The notes beneath the pieces are model-generated. The model was not told where the DNA came from, made no database searches, and worked only from the letters and a program-made list of their open reading frames with translations. From NCBI GenBank assembly GCA_003169895.1, contig PNAE01000007.1:1655978-1719977 (forward strand): a stretch of 64,000 nucleotides of DNA, given 5' to 3'. The DNA comes from Gemmatimonadota bacterium (GTDB taxonomy: Bacteria > Gemmatimonadota > Gemmatimonadetes > Gemmatimonadales > GWC2-71-9). The translations under genes and the position numbers were made by a program. Positions 38,949 to 48,342 of this stretch are shown here, in pieces; the first letter of the stretch is position 1, and each line of letters starts with the position of its first letter.

Positions 38949-41561
38949 TCAGAGCCACTCGTGGTAGTGGGCGATGTACCATTGCTTGACCAGCTGCACC
39001 GTAACGGCATACGCGATCGCACAGCACACCGCATAGGCCATGAAGGTGGCCGGCAGGGCAGTCATGTGCAGCGGCCCCGCGACCGGGCTGAACGGGATCA
39101 GCATCCCGACCGCCATGACGGCGCCGGTGGTGGCGAGTACCGGCACCGCGGCACGACTCTGCACGAACGGCACACGGGACGTCCGGATCATGTGTACCAC
39201 GAGTGTCTGCGTGAGTAGTCCGACGACAAACCATCCTGACTGGAATAGCGCCTGCCGTGCGGGCGCATTCGCCCCGAAGACATACCAGAGAACGCCGAAC
39301 GTGAGCAGGTCGAACAGTGAAGATACCGGGCCAACGCGCAGCATGAACCGCCCGATGTCGCCGGCGTTCCATCGCCTCGGCACCGCAACATAGTCGGCGT
39401 CGACGTTGTCCCATGGAATCGACACCTGCGACATGTCGTACAACAGGTTCTGCGCCAGCAGCTGCACGGGGAGCATCGGAAGAAACGGCAGCACGACACT
39501 GGCGGTCAGCACGCTCAGCACGTTCCCGAAGTTGGAGCTCGCGGTCATCTTGAGGTACTTGAGCATGTTCGCGAAAATCCGCCGGCCCTCGGTGACCCCG
39601 GCCGCAAGTACGAGGAGATCCTTTTCCAGCAGGATGATATCGGCGGATTCCCGCGCGATATCGACCGCGGTATCCACGGAGATGCCGACATCGGACTCCC
39701 GGAGCGCGCCGGCGTCGTTGATGCCGTCGCCGAGGTAGCCCACCGTGTGCCCGCGGCGCCGGAATGATCGCACCACGCGGACCTTCTGATCCGGCGTGAG
39801 CTTGGCGAACACGGTGATGGTATCCACGCGCGCGTCGAGTCGCGTGTCGTCGAGCTGCTCCAACTCGGTCCCGAGCAGCACCTGATCCACATCGAGGTGC
39901 ACGTCGTGACACACCTTGCGCGCTACCAGGTCGTTGTCGCCCGTCAGGATTCTGACCGTGATGCCGCGATCCCGGAGTGCCCGGAGCGCCGGTTCGGCGG
40001 TCTCCTTGGGCGGGTCGAGGAAACAGACGAAACCGGCCAGCACCAGATCGCACTCGTCCGCGGCGGACCAGCGCCGGGCTGCGTCCGGACACGGTTTCCA
40101 TGCGACCGCCACGACGCGCATGCCGGTCTGGTTCTGTTCGCGAACCAGGTCGAGGACTTGCCGGCGCCGTGCATCGGTAAGCGGGACCACGGCACTGCCG
40201 TCGCTGACCCGGGTGCAGGCAGCCACCACCTCTTCGACGGCGCCCTTGCTGATCAGCCGGCATGGCTCATCGGCGCGGGCGACCACCACCGACATCCGGC
40301 GCCGAATCAGGTCGAACGGCACTTCGTCCAGCTTCTGGTATCCCGCATCGCCGGTGAGGTGGCCGAACTCCGACGCATACGCCAGCACCGCATCGTCGAG
40401 GAGGTTGCGCAGGCCGGTCTGGTTCGCGCTCACGAGGTAGGCGAGCTCCAGCACGCTGTGGTCCTCGCGACCGAGCGAGTCGACGTAGCGCTCGAGCACG
40501 ATCCGGTCCTGCGTCAGCGTGCCGGTCTTGTCGGTGCACAGCACATCCATGGCCCCGAGGTTCTGGATGGCACCCAGGTGACGCACGATCGTCTTGCGAC
40601 GCGACATCGCGACCGCACCCTTGGCCAGGTTGGCGCTCACGATCATCGGAAGCATTTCCGGGGCGAGACCCACCGCCACCGCAAGCCCGAACATGAACGC
40701 CTGCAACCAGTCGCCCTTGGTGATGCCATTCACCACGAACACCACTGGTACCATCACCACCATGAACCGGACGAGCAGCCAGCTGACGCGGCGGACACCA
40801 AGATCGAACGACGTCATCGGCTCCCTGCCCGCCAGCTGGTGCGCGATCGCACCGAACATGGTGTCGGCGCCGGTTGCCACGACCATTGCCGTCGCGGCGC
40901 CGCTCACCACGCTCGTCCCCATGAACGCCATGGTGGGGAGATCGGTCAGCGAGCCGGCCAGGGGCAGCGCACCGTTGGCGGGGATGGCGGCATGCTTTTC
41001 CACCGGTGCCGATTCACCGGTGAGGGTCGCCTGCGCCACGAAGAGATCGGTGGCGCGCAATATCCGGACATCGGCCGGGATCATGTCGCCGGCGGCAAGC
41101 TGGATGATGTCGCCGGGCACCAGCACCTCGAGCGGCACTTCTTGCGACGTCGCGTGCGCCGATTCGGTGCCACCCGGCGGGCGCACCACCGCGGTATGGG
41201 TACGCACCATGTTTCGCAACGCCGCCGCCGCGTTCCCGGAACGGAGTTCCTGCGTGAACGGCAGGAGGGTACTCAGGACGATCATCACGGCGATGACGGT
41301 CACGACTCGCACGTCGCCGGTGACCCAGGAGAGCGTGGCGATCACCAGCAGGATGTAGTTGAATGGCGAGTTCCAGGCGTGCCAGAGATGCGTGGGCCAG
41401 TGGACCGGCTTGTCCGAGGCAGCACGGTTGGGGCCATATCGCAGCGTCCGCGTCGCGACTTCGTCCGGCCCGAGGCCCTGGAGGCTGGTACCCAGGCGTC
41501 GCATCGCATCGACTTCGGACTCTGCGGCCACCTGCCGGATCAGCTGTTCGCCCGGGTTCAC
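38949..41561 (-). CDS. mgtA: magnesium-translocating P-type ATPase
   Basis: P3B-type cation pump, 870 residues from GTG 41561. Ten predicted helices; TGES at about 181-184 in the actuator domain, phospho-Asp344 in LCTDKTGTLTQ, KGAVEEV in the nucleotide domain, and GDGINDAGALRESDVGIS in the hinge. The helix-4 motif GLAPEMLPMIVSANLAKGA is characteristic of MgtA/MgtB Mg2+ importers. It lies 43 nt after the response regulator gene and directly before an ABC exporter, which suggests control by that two-component system rather than by a Mg2+ leader RNA; none is seen. Confidence 0.9.
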   Translation of the reverse strand: MNPGEQLIRQVAAESEVDAMRRLGTSLQGLGPDEVATRTLRYGPNRAASDKPVHWPTHLWHAWNSPFNYILLVIATLSWVTGDVRVVTVIAVMIVLSTLLPFTQELRSGNAAAALRNMVRTHTAVVRPPGGTESAHATSQEVPLEVLVPGDIIQLAAGDMIPADVRILRATDLFVAQATLTGESAPVEKHAAIPANGALPLAGSLTDLPTMAFMGTSVVSGAATAMVVATGADTMFGAIAHQLAGREPMTSFDLGVRRVSWLLVRFMVVMVPVVFVVNGITKGDWLQAFMFGLAVAVGLAPEMLPMIVSANLAKGAVAMSRRKTIVRHLGAIQNLGAMDVLCTDKTGTLTQDRIVLERYVDSLGREDHSVLELAYLVSANQTGLRNLLDDAVLAYASEFGHLTGDAGYQKLDEVPFDLIRRRMSVVVARADEPCRLISKGAVEEVVAACTRVSDGSAVVPLTDARRRQVLDLVREQNQTGMRVVAVAWKPCPDAARRWSAADECDLVLAGFVCFLDPPKETAEPALRALRDRGITVRILTGDNDLVARKVCHDVHLDVDQVLLGTELEQLDDTRLDARVDTITVFAKLTPDQKVRVVRSFRRRGHTVGYLGDGINDAGALRESDVGISVDTAVDIARESADIILLEKDLLVLAAGVTEGRRIFANMLKYLKMTASSNFGNVLSVLTASVVLPFLPMLPVQLLAQNLLYDMSQVSIPWDNVDADYVAVPRRWNAGDIGRFMLRVGPVSSLFDLLTFGVLWYVFGANAPARQALFQSGWFVVGLLTQTLVVHMIRTSRVPFVQSRAAVPVLATTGAVMAVGMLIPFSPVAGPLHMTALPATFMAYAVCCAIAYAVTVQLVKQWYIAHYHEWL

Positions 41562-41604: not shown

Positions 41605-42267
41605 CTAGTCCTGGGCCAACAACCCGAGCTTCAGCGCGTACTGGATGTATTCCGACCGATGCGTGAGGCCGAGTTTTTCGTGGATGCGCTGCTTGTATGT
41701 CTCGACGGTCTTGGGGCTGATGGTGAGCCGGGTGCCAATCTCCGGGGCGGAGAACCCCTGGGCGACCAGGCGGAGGACGCCACGCTCGCGCGGCGTGAGA
41801 CGGTCGAAGTTGGAGCGCTCGTCGGCATGCTCGGCGCGCTTGCGCATGCCGCCGGCGAGCACCCGAGCGGCGGAGGGCTGAAGATAGGTGTCGCCGTAGG
41901 CCACGGCGCGTACCGCATCCACGAGTTCGCGATCGGCCGCCGTCTTCTGCAGGAACCCCGCGACGCCCTGCTCCACCAGCGGGATGACCGCCTCGTCGGG
42001 CGTGTGCATCGTGAGGATCAGAATCCGGGTGCGCACGCCGGCGGCCACCAGTTGCTTGGTCGCTTCGATACCGTCCATTTGCGGCATCGACAGATCCATC
42101 ACCAGCACGTCGGGGTCAAGGCGTCCGACGGCGGCGATTGCCTCGACACCGTTGGCGGCTTCACCGACGACCTTCATGTCCTTGGCGGTGCTCAGGACGG
42201 CCTTGAGGCCGGCGCGGACCACGGCGTGGTCATCCGCAAGCACGACGCTGATGATGTCATTGATCAT
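41605..42267 (-). CDS. NarL/LuxR-family response regulator
   Basis: 220 residues. Receiver domain with the acidic pair in VLADDHAVVRAG, phospho-Asp58 in LVMDLSMPQMDG, Thr in LTMHT and Lys in FLQKTA, then a LuxR-type helix-turn-helix (LTPRERGVLRLVAQGFSAPEIG, in parts; ISPKTVETYKQRIHEKLG). It should bind DNA as a dimer at short inverted or direct half-sites. Its ATG overlaps the sensor stop (ATGA). Likely targets are its own operon (mgtA and the ABC pump) and nearby stress genes. Confidence 0.93.
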   Translation of the reverse strand: MINDIISVVLADDHAVVRAGLKAVLSTAKDMKVVGEAANGVEAIAAVGRLDPDVLVMDLSMPQMDGIEATKQLVAAGVRTRILILTMHTPDEAVIPLVEQGVAGFLQKTAADRELVDAVRAVAYGDTYLQPSAARVLAGGMRKRAEHADERSNFDRLTPRERGVLRLVAQGFSAPEIGTRLTISPKTVETYKQRIHEKLGLTHRSEYIQYALKLGLLAQD

Positions 42268-43259
42268 GTATCGCTTCCCGCCGCCACGGTGCTCGTCGCC
42301 ACGACCCGGGTGCCGGAGCCGGGGGACGATCGAATGTGCATCGCTCCGCCCGCATGCGCGAGCAGTTCCCGCGCGCGGAAGAGCCCGACGCCGGTGGATC
42401 GCCGCTCGGCGGCGGCAACGTCGAAGCCGACCCCCTCGTCGACTACCTCGATCATGACAGTTGGTGCGTCGAATCTCAGCGTGACGTTTACGGCATTCAC
42501 GCTTGCATGCTGTTCGGTGTTTTCCACCGCCTCCTCCGCCACGCGCAGCAACGCGCGCATCACCGGGAGCGGAATGGTAAACGCCGAGCCTTCAACGCGC
42601 ACCCGCACGTCCAGCCGGCTCCGGTCTGCGATCCGTCGCCGCAGCGCGCTTAACGCGGACAGCAACCCGAACTCCGACAGCAGGCCGGGATAGATTTCGT
42701 CCGCCGCCGATCGCACGTCGTCCATGAGACGCGCCGTAGTCGCCTGCACCGCGTCAAGTACCGCCGCCACCTTGGGATCTCGGTTGCCACGAATCGCCGC
42801 GGTCAGCTGCAGGTTGAGGGCTGCCAGGTCCTGTCCCGTGGTGTCGCGCAGCTGCCTGGCGATCGCGGCACGCTGCTCTTCGTGAACCCGCAGGGTCCGC
42901 CGGACGAGGTCGATGTTGTGGGTGCGATCGGCCTCGATGTGGGCCACGAGCTGCTCGAGAACTTCCTCGATGGGGTGTTCGCCGCTGGCTGGCGGCTTCA
43001 TCGTCGTGCCAACGGCCAAGCGCCGTGCCGCCCGCTCGGCGGCGTGCAGCGGCCGCATTGCGGCCGGCGTCAGCACCAGGTCCAGTACGAGACTCGCCAC
43101 CAGCAGCGCCAGGATCATCAACACGAGTCGTTCGCCGGAACTGCCCGGGAATACGACGGCGGTGAATCCCACTAACAGGGCGTCGGCGCCGAGCATCTTC
43201 CAGAACAGTGGCCGGTGCCAGGCATGCCGTCGGTGCGGCGCGTTCACGGTGCTTGACAT
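42264..43259 (-). CDS. NarX/DegS-type sensor kinase lacking the phosphoacceptor His
   Basis: 331 residues from ATG 43259; further upstream codons are GC-driven read-through. Two membrane helices (about 25-40 and 45-63), a short HAMP-like stretch, HisKA_3 region and HATPase. The family motif R-E-L-H-D reads IARQLRDTTGQDL, so Arg138 stands where the phosphorylated His should be. The ATPase side looks intact: AEEAVENTEQHA (N-box), DEGVGFD and TGVGLFRARELL (G-boxes). It sits directly upstream of a response regulator with a normal Asp. It may act as a phosphatase or ligand-gated switch, or work with the PAS-GAF kinase encoded next door. Confidence 0.85.
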   Translation of the reverse strand: MSSTVNAPHRRHAWHRPLFWKMLGADALLVGFTAVVFPGSSGERLVLMILALLVASLVLDLVLTPAAMRPLHAAERAARRLAVGTTMKPPASGEHPIEEVLEQLVAHIEADRTHNIDLVRRTLRVHEEQRAAIARQLRDTTGQDLAALNLQLTAAIRGNRDPKVAAVLDAVQATTARLMDDVRSAADEIYPGLLSEFGLLSALSALRRRIADRSRLDVRVRVEGSAFTIPLPVMRALLRVAEEAVENTEQHASVNAVNVTLRFDAPTVMIEVVDEGVGFDVAAAERRSTGVGLFRARELLAHAGGAMHIRSSPGSGTRVVATSTVAAGSDT

Positions 43260-43384
43260 GGGGGCAAGGTAAGTGGCGGGTGCCAGCATCGTGTATCGGG
43301 CGGACGATGGTATTACTGTCAGGGGTCGGCGGACGCTGCGCCCGGCATTTCCCCGACACTGCCAGCGGAGGGGAGCGATCGGCG

Positions 43385-45199
43385 ATGTCAATGGGGATGA
43401 TCAGGCGAGTCAACATCAGCCTTGCCGCGGGCCTCGGGTTCGTCGGCATGGTGACGGCCGTCGCGATACTGACGACGGACCACCCGCTGCGAGCCGTCCT
43501 GCTCGGCGTCCTTCTCATCATCGCGGCCGCGATGGCCTGGCTGCTGCAACGCGTGATTGTCCGTGACCTCCGCGACCGCGCGGTCGCCGAAGCGAAATTG
43601 CGAGACTCCGAAGCGCGGTTCTCGGGCATCCTCGCCATCGCCGCCGACGCCATCGTCACGACCGATCAGACGGGCCGCATCATCCAGGTCAACCGCTGGG
43701 CCGAGGCGATGTTCGGCTATGCAGCGGCAGAGATTGTCGGTCGGCCGCTCGACATCCTGCTGCCGCAGGACAAGACCGTGATCCACCGCGAGCACATGGC
43801 TCACTTCGCCCGCTCGAACGACACCTCGCGTCGCATGGGCGGGCGGCGGGAAGTGTCCGGCCGGCGGAACAACGGCGAGGAGTTTCCGGCGGAGGCGTCG
43901 ATTTCGAAGCTCTCGACTGCTGACGGGATGCTGTTCACGGCGGTGGTGCGCGACACCACGGAAGCAAAGCAGCTGGCGCATCACGAACACGTACTGGCAG
44001 TGGCCGGTGTCCGCCTGGGAGCCACCCTCGATTACGAGATGACGCTGCGTCTCGTCACCGAGTTGCCGGTGCAGGCGGCGGGCGACTGGTGCCTTCTCGA
44101 CGTGGTGGAAGAGACGGACCGCGGGCCCACGCCGCTGCGCCGGCTGGCAAGCCCGCACTCGGAGGCCACTCGCGACCGCGCGCTGCGATCGATCGAGGCG
44201 CGCGGGCTCGACTGGGACTCCCCGTCGGAGACGCTGGATGTCATGCGTACTGGTGAGACGCGATTTCATCCCGATATCGCCGAGGACTGGCTCGAGGCGC
44301 ACGCCGTGGACGCCGGGGAACTCGACGATCTGCGCCGTCTCGGGATCAGGTCGTGTGTCACGGTCCCGCTGCGCTCCCGTGACCGAATGATCGGTGCACT
44401 GACGGTGGGGACCTCGGTGCGACGGATGCACGCGGCGGACGTCGAACTGACGCAGGCACTGGCGGAACGGGCGGCGCTCGCAATTGACAACGCCCTCCTG
44501 TATCAGCGCGCGCAGCACGCGCTCGCCGCCCGCGACGAAGTGCTCGCGGTGGTGTCGCATGACTTGCGTACCCCGGCCAGCGCGATCGCGATGTGCGCCC
44601 GGACATTGCTGGACCACCCTCCGGACGCGCCCGGCGAGCGCCGCGCGCTCTACGTCACCATCCTCGACTCATCGGAGTGGATGCATCGGCTGATACGGGA
44701 CCTCCTTGACGCGGCGAGCATCGACGCCGGCAAACTGGCGATCCATCTCGAGCGGGAACCGATGGCCCCCATGCTCACGGCGGTCGCCGAGCTGTTCCGG
44801 GAACGGGCGCGCGCCGCCGATGTCGCGCTCGAAGCCGACGTGCCACCAAACCTGCCATTGGTGCTGGCCGACCGCGACCGCATCCAACAGATGCTCGGTA
44901 ATCTTCTCAGCAATGCGCTGCGTTTCACGCCACGAGCTGGGACGATCACGGTCGCCGCGGTGCGAGGCGACGATGGCGTGGTTCTGTCAGTCAGCGATAC
45001 CGGTGCGGGGATTTCGCCCGAGAACCTGCCCTATCTCTTCGACCGTTTCTGGCAGGCGGGACGGGCCGGAGTTGCGCAAGGCAGCGGTCTCGGGCTCGCG
45101 ATTGCGAAGGGGATTGTATCTGCGCATCGCGGCCGGATCTGGGTCGAGAGTGCGATCGGGCGCGGCAGCAAGTTCTCCGTGTTCCTCCCCGGCGCGTAA
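43385..45199 (+). CDS. PAS-GAF sensor histidine kinase
   Basis: 604 residues from ATG 43385, preceded by GGAGGGGAG. Two membrane helices (about 10-30 and 36-55), PAS domain (about 75-195, ending VVRDTTEAKQ), GAF domain (about 205-375), HisKA with His392 in VVSHDLRTPASA, and HATPase with NLLSNALRFTP, DTGAGIS and GSGLGLAIAKG. It has no adjacent response regulator of its own; it is divergent from the His-less sensor and its regulator with a 125 nt gap. It might be the actual phosphate donor for that regulator, although HisKA/HisKA_3 cross-talk is unusual. Confidence 0.9.
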   Translation: MSMGMIRRVNISLAAGLGFVGMVTAVAILTTDHPLRAVLLGVLLIIAAAMAWLLQRVIVRDLRDRAVAEAKLRDSEARFSGILAIAADAIVTTDQTGRIIQVNRWAEAMFGYAAAEIVGRPLDILLPQDKTVIHREHMAHFARSNDTSRRMGGRREVSGRRNNGEEFPAEASISKLSTADGMLFTAVVRDTTEAKQLAHHEHVLAVAGVRLGATLDYEMTLRLVTELPVQAAGDWCLLDVVEETDRGPTPLRRLASPHSEATRDRALRSIEARGLDWDSPSETLDVMRTGETRFHPDIAEDWLEAHAVDAGELDDLRRLGIRSCVTVPLRSRDRMIGALTVGTSVRRMHAADVELTQALAERAALAIDNALLYQRAQHALAARDEVLAVVSHDLRTPASAIAMCARTLLDHPPDAPGERRALYVTILDSSEWMHRLIRDLLDAASIDAGKLAIHLEREPMAPMLTAVAELFRERARAADVALEADVPPNLPLVLADRDRIQQMLGNLLSNALRFTPRAGTITVAAVRGDDGVVLSVSDTGAGISPENLPYLFDRFWQAGRAGVAQGSGLGLAIAKGIVSAHRGRIWVESAIGRGSKFSVFLPGA

Positions 45200-45263: not shown

Positions 45264-46400
45264 TCAACTCGCCGCGGCCAACGGATCTGCCGGTTGGCGC
45301 ACGAACCTGAGGTGGGCGGCGATCCCGCCGGCTTCTCGATCCAGCCGGTCCGCCGCCTCGCCCATCACGATCTCGAGCCTGGTGTGATGCGCGAGCGCGA
45401 ACTTCACCGCCTGTTCCGCAAGCTCCGGCTCGGCATTGACGAATCGCTCCGTGAGCAGCACCTCGTGCGCCCGGCCGGCACTCGCCGCGTCGAGCACGGC
45501 GACGGCTCCCGCCACGGCGGCGCCATGCGCACCCACTGCCTCGATGAGCTGGTCGACCATCGCTTGATCGTCCGCATCGCGCAACGCGCTGGCTCCCTGT
45601 GCGGCCAGGTCACGGATCGCGGCATCAGGCGTGCGTGCGGTCAACGCGGCCAGACACAGCGTGTGCCGAGCCAGACTGGGGGACAACTCGCGCAGCAGGG
45701 CATGCGCCGCCGGCGTGGTGCCACCGAGAATGACGTAGCCCGACTCCCCCGCCAGGGCCAGAATCTGCGACGCGGCGGCATGTACCAGGCGACCGCGCGC
45801 CGTGACCCGGGCCTTTGCGGCCAAGTCGGTCGCGGGCGTGCCGCGAGTGCCTGGATGAAACCCGGCCCGAGGCAACGCTCCGAGGTGATCCGCGTGGCCG
45901 CCGCGAACATGCACGGCGACCTTGCCCGCCGGCAGCAGGCTTCCAGCCACATAACGGAACAGGCGCGCCGAGACGCCATCGGCGATTGCCACGATGACCA
46001 CGCGATGCTGCTTCAGGGCACGAATGCACGGCGTGGCCCAGACGCCGCGTTGCCAACGCACCAGCGTCGGCGTCGGTGCAGGCAGGGCGCCGGCAAACCG
46101 CACTTGGTCCGACGTGATGAAGCCGACCCATCCGCACGCATGCGCCGCGGGGGAGCCATCGCTCACCACGTCGCCGAGCAGCGCGACACTCCGCTCGAAC
46201 TCGTCGCGCTCGTTCCTGGACTGCTCCGCGAGGCTCGCTCGCACCGGCGCCAGCGCATTCAGGATCGTGGCTTGCCAGGCATCTCGTCCGGCTGGATCGC
46301 TGACCGGTTGCTCGAGATAGACGCTGAGCACCATGTCGCCGTCGAGGGCCTCCGCAAGGGCGACGAGTTGTGCTTCACTCAACAGATCGGATTCGTTCAT
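45264..46400 (-). CDS. eRF1/baeRF-like protein
   Basis: 378 residues from ATG 46400. The segment VVIVAIADGVSARLFRYVAG followed by a basic, His-containing stretch and a C-terminal domain (EVLLTERFVNAEPELAEQAVKFA) resembles the bacterial archaeo-eukaryotic release factor (baeRF) group, in which an eRF1 middle-like domain is followed by an L7Ae-like domain. No GGQ motif is visible. Possible roles are ribosome rescue or hibernation; this rests on fold-level resemblance only. Its start overlaps the stop of the universal stress protein (ATGA). Confidence 0.55.
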   Translation of the reverse strand: MNESDLLSEAQLVALAEALDGDMVLSVYLEQPVSDPAGRDAWQATILNALAPVRASLAEQSRNERDEFERSVALLGDVVSDGSPAAHACGWVGFITSDQVRFAGALPAPTPTLVRWQRGVWATPCIRALKQHRVVIVAIADGVSARLFRYVAGSLLPAGKVAVHVRGGHADHLGALPRAGFHPGTRGTPATDLAAKARVTARGRLVHAAASQILALAGESGYVILGGTTPAAHALLRELSPSLARHTLCLAALTARTPDAAIRDLAAQGASALRDADDQAMVDQLIEAVGAHGAAVAGAVAVLDAASAGRAHEVLLTERFVNAEPELAEQAVKFALAHHTRLEIVMGEAADRLDREAGGIAAHLRFVRQPADPLAAAS

Positions 46401-47368
46401 ACGGCAGCATGGGCGGTGACCGCCCCCTCCGGACCGGGGTGGAGATCTACGCCGTCGGCGTGGCACACGAGCAGCGCACAGTGGGTATCGTGGAGGACCC
46501 GATCGGCTACGCTGCTGCGCAGCAGGCGCGACGTCCTCCGGTCGCGAGTCGTCAATGTCACAAGGTCGGCGCGGACATCGCGGGCGATTCTTGCCACCAT
46601 GGGTCCGATGGGCGCGGATGGAAATGCCACGGGCGCGAGGTCCACGACCGTCTCAACTGGCAGCCTCTCGCGCGTGCGCAACTCCGCGGCAACGGCATCG
46701 AGGTAGCGATTCGCCTCGTCGACCTGCGCTTTCGTTGCCCCCTCGTCGGTCACGAGGACGCCCGGTACCTGCGCCGCTGCAACTTCGACCGGGACCGGCG
46801 TCACGACGCGGCCCAGTATCAGGGTGGACTTCCCCAGGCGGCCCAATGCGCGCGCTGGTTCCAATGCCGTCTCGGCCGCCTTCGAACCGTCGAGCGCGAC
46901 CAGGATGCGCCGGAACGGTGACGGCGGCACAATCGACTGGTCATCAAGCCGCAGCAACAATACGGGCGTCGCAGTACGATGTACCAAGTCGTCGGCAACG
47001 CTGCCGGTCAAGGCGCGGCGCCATCCAGTGAGGCCGTGGGTCGCCATCACGATCAAGTCGCTCCCAGTCTTGGCGACGTAGTCGGCCACCGCTGCTGCCA
47101 CCGGCAGGGTGCCGCTGAGTCTCACGGTAGTGACGGCAAGGCCGGCATCATCGCGGAGCGCCTTGGCAACGGGCTGCATCCGCTCGTCACGGTAGGTGCG
47201 GTGTTCACGCTCAAGCTGCTCATCCAACGTCGGATCGACCCGGCTCAGCTCGGTCACCAGCACCAGATGCAATTCGGCACCGTGGGCCCGTGCCAACACT
47301 GCCGCCGGAGAAATGGCCGCCTCGGCTGCCGCCGAACCATCCAGCGGAACCAGTATCCTGCTGAACAT
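46397..47368 (-). CDS. universal stress protein with two Usp domains
   Basis: 323 residues, two tandem Usp domains. Domain 1 (1-145) begins FSRILVPLDGSAAAE and has the ATP-binding motif G-2x-G-9x-G-S in MATHGLTGWRRALTGSVAD. Domain 2 (about 150-305) begins FRRILVALDGSKAAE, and its loop reads TTRDRRTSRLLRSSVAD, without the glycines, so it probably does not bind ATP in the usual way. It is the first gene of a two-gene unit with the eRF1-like protein. The upstream region carries GCAGTC-type sites. Confidence 0.92.
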   Translation of the reverse strand: MFSRILVPLDGSAAAEAAISPAAVLARAHGAELHLVLVTELSRVDPTLDEQLEREHRTYRDERMQPVAKALRDDAGLAVTTVRLSGTLPVAAAVADYVAKTGSDLIVMATHGLTGWRRALTGSVADDLVHRTATPVLLLRLDDQSIVPPSPFRRILVALDGSKAAETALEPARALGRLGKSTLILGRVVTPVPVEVAAAQVPGVLVTDEGATKAQVDEANRYLDAVAAELRTRERLPVETVVDLAPVAFPSAPIGPMVARIARDVRADLVTLTTRDRRTSRLLRSSVADRVLHDTHCALLVCHADGVDLHPGPEGAVTAHAAV

Positions 47369-47682
47369 CGCTGCCTCCTCGCCGCCTGGGCCGGTTCACC
47401 ATCGGAGGTGAACGTGTCGCAGTCTAGCAATCGCGAACGGCCGCGGCAGTCGGGCAACGGCCGACGCAATGTCGGGCGATTCGACCCGTTTCCCGGCCGC
47501 GCGCCAAGCATCGGGGAAGCGCGCCAGCCACGTCGGGGTCTGCCCTGACGGCGGGTCCGTCCTTCCGCTGACTGACGCGCGAGGGCGCCCAGTGCATCAT
47601 GCATGGCACCCCATGGACGGGCTCGCGACCGAGCGTCGCGACCTGCATCAACCACGCAGCGCGATGCTGCAAGGAGAGACCG
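47369..47682. other. 314-nt divergent intergenic region (usp / BON)
   Basis: No gene is supported. It holds the two 10-mers described separately (47418-47453) and, near the end, AAGGAGAG at 47671-47678, the ribosome-binding site of the BON gene. On the minus strand TAGACT (47426-47421) could be a -10 for usp, without a good -35. Confidence 0.5.
47418..47453. promoter_or_regulatory. paired GCAGTC-type sites upstream of usp
   Basis: CGCAGTCTAG (47418-47427) and CGGCAGTCGG (47444-47453) lie 26 nt apart in the same orientation. Both 10-mers recur in the divergent region at 53342-53502. Candidate activator or repressor sites, about 50-85 nt upstream of the usp start. Confidence 0.45.
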
Positions 47683-48342
47683 ATGAAGACCGACATGCAG
47701 CTCCAGAAGGACGTGATCGACGAGTTGAAGTGGCAACCGAGGACCCGTGACGCGGAGATCGGTGTGGCTGCCAAGGGGGGCGTCGTGACACTCACCGGCG
47801 ACGTGACCAGTTACGTACAGAAGTTCGAGGCCGCCCGGCTTGCCGAGCAGGTAAGCGGTGTTCAGGCGATCGCGGATGAACTGCACGTGAAGCTGCCGAA
47901 CGCCTCGGTGCGGTCGGACACGGACATCGCGCACAGTGCCATCACGGCGTTCAAGTGGAACATCGAGATCCCCGACGACCGCCTCACGCTCAAGGTCCAG
48001 GATGGGTGGGTCACCGTGCATGGCAACGTCGACTGGCAATACCAGAAGAGCGCGGCGGAGAACGCGATCCGTTACCTGATCGGCGTCAAGGGCGTGACCA
48101 ACCTGGCCGTGGTGCAGCAGCCGCAAGTGGCGCCGGAAGTCGTGCGCCAGCAGATTGCCGCGGCGCTGAAGCGCAGCGCCACCGTCGACTCCGCACGCGT
48201 CACCGTCGAGTCCAAGAATGGTGGCACCGTCGTCCTGCGCGGCACGGTGCGCTCGTGGACCGAGCGCGAAGATGCGGAGCGCGCCGCCTGGGCGACGCCC
48301 GGCGTGGCTCGGGTCGACGACGAACTGGCAGTAGGCGTCTGA
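47683..48342 (+). CDS. BON-domain protein, three domains
   Basis: 219 residues from ATG 47683. Three BON (bacterial OsmY and nodulation) domains: about 3-70 (IGVAAKGGVVTLTGDVTSY), 75-145 (LTLKVQDGWVTVHGNVDWQY) and 148-218 (VTVESKNGGTVVLRGTVRSW). There is no signal peptide, so it is cytoplasmic, unlike OsmY. BON proteins bind membranes or lipids and rise under osmotic or stationary-phase stress. The first 13 residues resemble the N-terminus of the hydrolase at 55633-56346. Confidence 0.9.
   Translation: MKTDMQLQKDVIDELKWQPRTRDAEIGVAAKGGVVTLTGDVTSYVQKFEAARLAEQVSGVQAIADELHVKLPNASVRSDTDIAHSAITAFKWNIEIPDDRLTLKVQDGWVTVHGNVDWQYQKSAAENAIRYLIGVKGVTNLAVVQQPQVAPEVVRQQIAAALKRSATVDSARVTVESKNGGTVVLRGTVRSWTEREDAERAAWATPGVARVDDELAVGV

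Follow-up and report, generated by a model that had tools for sequence, protein, structure and literature searches.

Sensor kinases of at least nine related species of Gemmatimonadota have, as read from their alignment, permanently lost the phosphoacceptor histidine. In the sensor studied here the residue is Arg138, and the protein is probably an off-switch that sits beside a second, intact kinase. The reading we favor, with reasonable rather than strong confidence, is that the Arg138 sensor is a dedicated phosphatase of the adjacent NarL-type response regulator, with a PAS-GAF kinase as the most likely phosphodonor. The gene lies in a 64,000-nucleotide stretch of contig PNAE01000007.1, referred to below as the window.

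The sensor gene (42264–43259, minus strand) starts with ATG and encodes 331 amino acid residues. Profile searches find HisKA_3 (PF07730) at 33.1 bits, where the Pfam cut-off is 24, and HATPase_c at 39.8 bits, where it is 26.4. The layout is two predicted transmembrane helixes with a very short loop, a HAMP-like linker, a DHp domain carrying Arg138, and a CA domain. The AlphaFold2 model (pLDDT 85) agrees: after two N-terminal helixes and their short loop come a long pair of DHp helixes and the CA domain. The N-terminal hydrophobic helixes (residues about 18–60; 43080–43208, minus strand) are predicted to anchor the protein in the membrane, with no sensor domain in the periplasm. Fold matches of the model include the VraS CA domain and DesK-DesR complexes, among them the phosphatase-state structure 7ssj.

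The H-box reads EEQRAAIARQLRDTTGQDLAAL. Arg138, encoded by CGC (42846–42848, as all sensor codons on the minus strand), occupies the position of the HisKA_3 phosphoacceptor His, which is therefore missing. It follows that ordinary autophosphorylation is lost, and no autokinase activity is expected. The DxxxQ phosphatase motif of HisKA_3 proteins is complete, with Asp139 at H+1 (42843–42845) and Gln143 at H+5 (42831–42833). The ATP site retains E243, N247, and H251 in the N-box region (residues 243–251; 42507–42533), D274, G276, and G278 in the G1 box DEGVG (residues 274–278; 42426–42440), and G290 and G292 in the G2 box GVG (residues 290–292; 42384–42392). Residue 299 (42363–42365), at the Arg position of the MRER motif, is Leu. 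A sequence-only reading had placed Arg138 at the His position of the HisKA_3 motif, and its coordinates and numbering prove right; its view that the N- and G-boxes are kept is borne out by the alignment.

The sensor's partner is a NarL/LuxR-type response regulator with REC and GerE domains, found by profile search (41605–42267, minus strand), whose start overlaps the sensor stop by 4 nt (ATGA). Its phospho-accepting pocket is kept, to judge by the aligned rows: D58 (codon 42094–42096, minus strand), T86, and K108 are present in all of them, and D12 and D13 wherever the match covers these residues. Sensor and regulator genes are adjacent in 8/8 Arg loci in which the regulator is visible, and regulator identity within the Arg clade is 63–98%. 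On the other side, a 125-nt intergenic region (43260–43384) separates the sensor gene from a divergent one encoding a PAS-GAF-HisKA-HATPase kinase (43385–45199, plus strand). Profile search and alignment show that this kinase has an intact His392 (codon 44558–44560, SHDLRTP), and it is the proposed phosphodonor. Both Asp58 and the divergent kinase at 125 nt had been picked out earlier, and both are confirmed.

Relatives were gathered from the phylum Gemmatimonadota, from two GTDB families, and from the order. The alignment holds 80 sensor proteins; two more, L195 and L196, were found later and stand outside the 80. At position 138, the 80 proteins have His (64), Arg (8), Gln (4), Tyr (3), or Asn (1), i.e., 16 are non-His. 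Besides the window, Arg is found in L006/L003, L007, L008, L035, L036, L089, L095, and L195, making nine species; L195, the ninth Arg member, belongs to the window's genus and reads ETLREATAQQ. The Arg clade extends over family f1, represented by the window's genus with three species, and family f2, represented by genera g34 and g37. In a concatenated sensor and regulator tree, from which the H-box columns were excluded, the eight Arg rows form one clade with an SH-aLRT value of 99. On that tree, five changes between His and other residues are required: one to Arg, two to Gln, one to Asn, and one to Tyr. The sensor-only tree places L089 and L095 apart from the other Arg rows, on a long branch, which suggested several separate Arg origins; that proposal is dropped because the concatenated tree joins all eight.

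Thus, Arg138 is an old, inherited substitution, fixed throughout a clade that spans two families; fixation was the point that the sequence-only reading had asked to see checked. A sequencing error at codon 138, which the sequence-only reading had named as what could undo it, is ruled out by the same residue in nine species, and the His-bearing proteins (64/80) lie outside the Arg clade. A wrong start or frame is likewise ruled out, as the ORF is collinear with its relatives and has no stops.

Of the other replacements, Gln is found in L054, L055, and L056 (genomes G094, G112, and G046) and in L057 (G212), in the contexts RQLQD, RRLQD, and RELQD, with two apparently separate origins on the tree. 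Asn (RELNE) occurs in two genera, in L131 (G372) and L196 (G385). The later-found L196 reads RELNESTAQ and has sensor, regulator, and PAS kinase in that order on one strand. Tyr (ARKLYDE) occurs in the distant relatives L100–L102 (loci L145, L146, and L147; G175, G119, and G124), a DivL-like residue within a HisKA_3 protein.

Position 138 is the column that is 100% conserved in the His-bearing set yet changed in every His-less protein. Gln143, by comparison, is invariant in the whole alignment: it is one of 13 invariant columns in the 67 aligned relatives, position 138 not being among them, and it is present in 16/16 His-less proteins of the 80-row set, whether these have Arg, Gln, Asn, or Tyr at 138. 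The ATP-site residues N247, H251, D274, G278, G292, and G316 are likewise invariant in the 67. Phosphatase activity of NarX, a HisKA_3 sensor, requires DxxxQ (PMC3510030), and the His is nonessential for NarX dephosphorylation of P~NarL (PMC5231405). In the phosphatase-state DesK:DesR complex, the water is positioned by Gln193 and the regulator contacted by Asp189, with His188 pointing away (PMC5231405). Because this work on NarX and DesK separates the two activities, the Arg138 protein is read as a phosphatase. Phosphatase states are ATP-bound or ATP-dependent in DesK (PMC5231405) and in DrBphP (PMC8292422). The invariant ATP-site residues fit such a state, and a need for ATP like that of DrBphP would explain why the site is kept. 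Of the three roles offered in the sequence-only reading, then, that of phosphatase is best supported, with DxxxQ intact and Gln143 unchanged whichever residue replaced the His. The 12 other columns are equally invariant, those of the ATP site included, so any role requiring the fold also predicts Gln143 retention.

The proposed sequence of events is as follows. Asp58 of the regulator would be phosphorylated by the PAS-GAF kinase, by acetyl phosphate, or by the genome's other HisKA_3 kinase. The membrane-anchored Arg138 protein would dock on the regulator through its DHp helix, and hydrolysis of the acyl phosphate would be carried out by a water that Gln143 positions. The conformation competent for phosphatase activity would be set by ATP binding, and input would raise or lower phosphatase activity, not kinase activity.

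The SHDL-box His of the PAS kinase is intact in every locus with a readable H-box. In most Arg loci, its gene is divergent and lies 125–410 nt from the sensor gene; in L036 the distance is about 1.4 kb. The arrangement is convergent in the g44 Gln clade. Many His-bearing relatives have the kinase gene in third place, after those of sensor and regulator, in a tight operon, and in L131 the kinase frame overlaps the regulator frame by 4 nt. The tight operons and this overlap indicate that the PAS kinase belongs to the NarL-type regulator. At the Tyr loci, the regulator is coupled instead to a PAS-HisKA_3 kinase, and the two face the sensor from the other strand. A PAS kinase lies within 4.5 kb in 9/13 His-less and 32/44 His-bearing loci (Fisher P = 1). 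Recruitment of the kinase to compensate for the lost His is unsupported by these counts. Being equally frequent beside His-bearing homologues, the kinase is instead an old part of the signaling module. An opposite-strand arrangement is found in 8/9 His-less and 6/32 His-bearing loci that have the kinase, counts uncorrected for relatedness. The tie to the PAS-GAF kinase drawn in the sequence-only reading thus stands as conserved synteny, but not as a dependence arising from His loss.

Other phosphodonors are possible, since the genome carries an acetate kinase gene and a single further HisKA_3 sensor, which lies at a distance of about 160 kb and has a separate regulator. Besides the 12 equally invariant columns, three observations count against the phosphatase reading. 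Glu replaces Asp139 (LRE) in 7/9 Arg proteins, no PAS-kinase homologue was found at L089 or L095 within about 7 kb (about 3.5–5 kb for L089), and kinase presence does not track His loss. The Asp139-to-Glu change was also considered as a mark of kinase loss and dropped, because a His-bearing clade has Glu at the same position (HESSAQ).

The close company of the PAS-GAF kinase in most Arg loci would also suit the main rival, an allosteric partner, i.e., a protein that binds the kinase or the regulator and tunes phosphotransfer while catalyzing nothing itself, in the manner of DivL with CckA or RetS with GacS. That a kinase lacking the His can tune another one has its precedent in DivL (PMC4211667, PMC9491836). 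In addition, a pseudokinase form of ChrS boosts HrrS phosphotransfer, and native ChrS and HrrS heterodimerize (PMC9491836). However, the HisKA_3 and HisKA helix bundles are of different classes, so that heterodimers of the two seem unlikely, strict retention of Gln143 is unneeded for such a role, and L089 and L095 lack the neighboring kinase. We regard this role as unlikely. A different non-catalytic role, in which the sensor buffers the regulator by holding it at the membrane with an affinity set by ATP and its phosphorylation unchanged, would fit the predicted anchor, the kept CA domain, and the kept adjacency of the regulator gene, but it leaves the invariant Gln143 unexplained and is distinctly unlikely.

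The kinase part of the Arg proteins bears on two further proposals. Between the window and the g34 proteins, CA identity is 0.54–0.56 and TM-HAMP identity 0.28–0.30; in this comparison TM-HAMP is the most changed part of the Arg-clade sensors, the CA domain being otherwise well kept. The exception is the MRER Arg beside the G2 box. It is present in 63/64 His-bearing relatives and in all Gln, Asn, and Tyr relatives, whereas residue 299 is Leu or Met in 8/8 aligned Arg138 proteins. By the alignment, the kinase part of these proteins is thereby altered at a second site. The mostly intact ATP site and the better-kept CA domain would allow the Arg138 sensor, paired with a different sensor in a mixed dimer, to phosphorylate that partner's His. 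Against this stand the loss of the MRER Arg, the loss of one G1 Gly in L006, and the distance and separate regulator of the genome's single other HisKA_3 sensor, which together make phosphorylation in trans very unlikely.

The second proposal is that the kinase is on its way out and kept by inertia. Arg-clade sensors do diverge faster relative to the regulator than average: the window and L006 have values of 0.88 for the regulator and 0.54 for the sensor, where His-bearing pairs in that bin have a mean of 0.65 and a range that includes the Arg value. In addition, the CA domains of L089 and L095 are degraded, with E at 290, and HATPase_c falls under the cut-off in L144. Yet the clade spans two families, stops and frameshifts are absent from the sensor gene in all nine species, and dN/dS is 0.17–0.33 in His-less pairs (synonymous sites being near saturation in the window-L006 pair), inside the 0.07–0.41 span of His-bearing pairs. 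Values of 0.17–0.33 mean constraint by purifying selection and indicate a gene that is not decaying; decay is hardly tenable and already largely refuted. Finally, Arg138 might itself take phosphate from ATP and pass it to Asp58, a phosphoarginine-to-aspartate system. In its favor, the clade has settled on Arg alone at this position, and phosphoarginine, like phosphohistidine, is an N-phosphate of high energy. Against it, the acceptor position is occupied by Gln, Asn, or Tyr in sister lineages, the Arg of MRER is gone, and we know of no phosphoarginine-accepting sensor; its probability is close to negligible.

The surroundings of the signaling genes (45264–48342 and 38949–41561) encode a protein that weakly matches baeRF, a peptide release factor-like family, as well as a double universal stress protein (Usp; 46397–47368, minus strand), a protein with three BON domains (47683–48342, plus strand), and a P-type ATPase. 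The Usp and BON genes, possible targets of the regulator, are neighbors in L003 and L049 as well, and L003 has the same gene order as the window. Together, these neighbors suggest a stress regulon around the signaling genes. Between the sensor gene and the divergent kinase gene lies a TGTCRGGG(G)AAT-like sequence (43357, minus strand) that recurs and is also found before the Usp gene of L049; its positions in the other loci are L049 7953 and 4935, both minus strand, and L195 5176, plus strand. It is a possible binding box for the regulator.

Compared with known systems, the Arg138 sensor agrees with the NarX, DesK, and LiaS-VraS class in having HisKA_3 and HATPase_c above the Pfam cut-offs, a NarL-type regulator, DxxxQ, and a fold matching VraS CA and DesK-DesR; it differs in lacking the phosphoacceptor His and the MRER Arg near G2. 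DivL of Caulobacter carries Tyr in place of His, a replacement not found in the Arg138 sensor, which has Arg, and the sequence match between the two is weak and confined to the CA domain. The phytochrome DrBphP of Deinococcus radiodurans lacks detectable kinase activity, apparently for reasons other than a lost His, and its phosphatase activity relies on the H+4 Glu of HisKA-type proteins, not on the HisKA_3 Gln. As for likenesses, DivL too has its phosphoacceptor His replaced and, as a pseudokinase, tunes a second kinase (PMC4211667, PMC9491836), and DrBphP is an ATP-dependent phosphatase with no detectable kinase activity (PMC8292422). BumS of Campylobacter jejuni is reported to be a phosphatase only, without the residues for autophosphorylation, so that its regulator must receive phosphate from another, non-cognate source (PMC11796366). 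The description of BumS is that of a PAS sensor in the cytoplasm, whereas the Arg138 sensor is of the HisKA_3 class and predicted to be membrane-anchored.

Phosphatase-only sensors (BumS, DrBphP) and His-less kinases (DivL) are thus already known. No paper on HisKA_3 sensors with a naturally lost His was found in the open-access literature, a search outside which most subscription journals lie. What appears new in these sequences is a HisKA_3 family with repeated His loss in which the catalytic Gln is untouched. Most sensors both phosphorylate and dephosphorylate their own regulator, and the share of each activity is hard to judge. The family described here amounts to a natural experiment: five changes on the tree removed the kinase acceptor, and both the regulator and the phosphatase Gln were retained. 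If the phosphatase reading is true, these proteins would be natural HisKA_3 phosphatase-only sensors beside an intact kinase for the same regulator, and the kinase and phosphatase activities would be split over two genes, where each could be studied separately.
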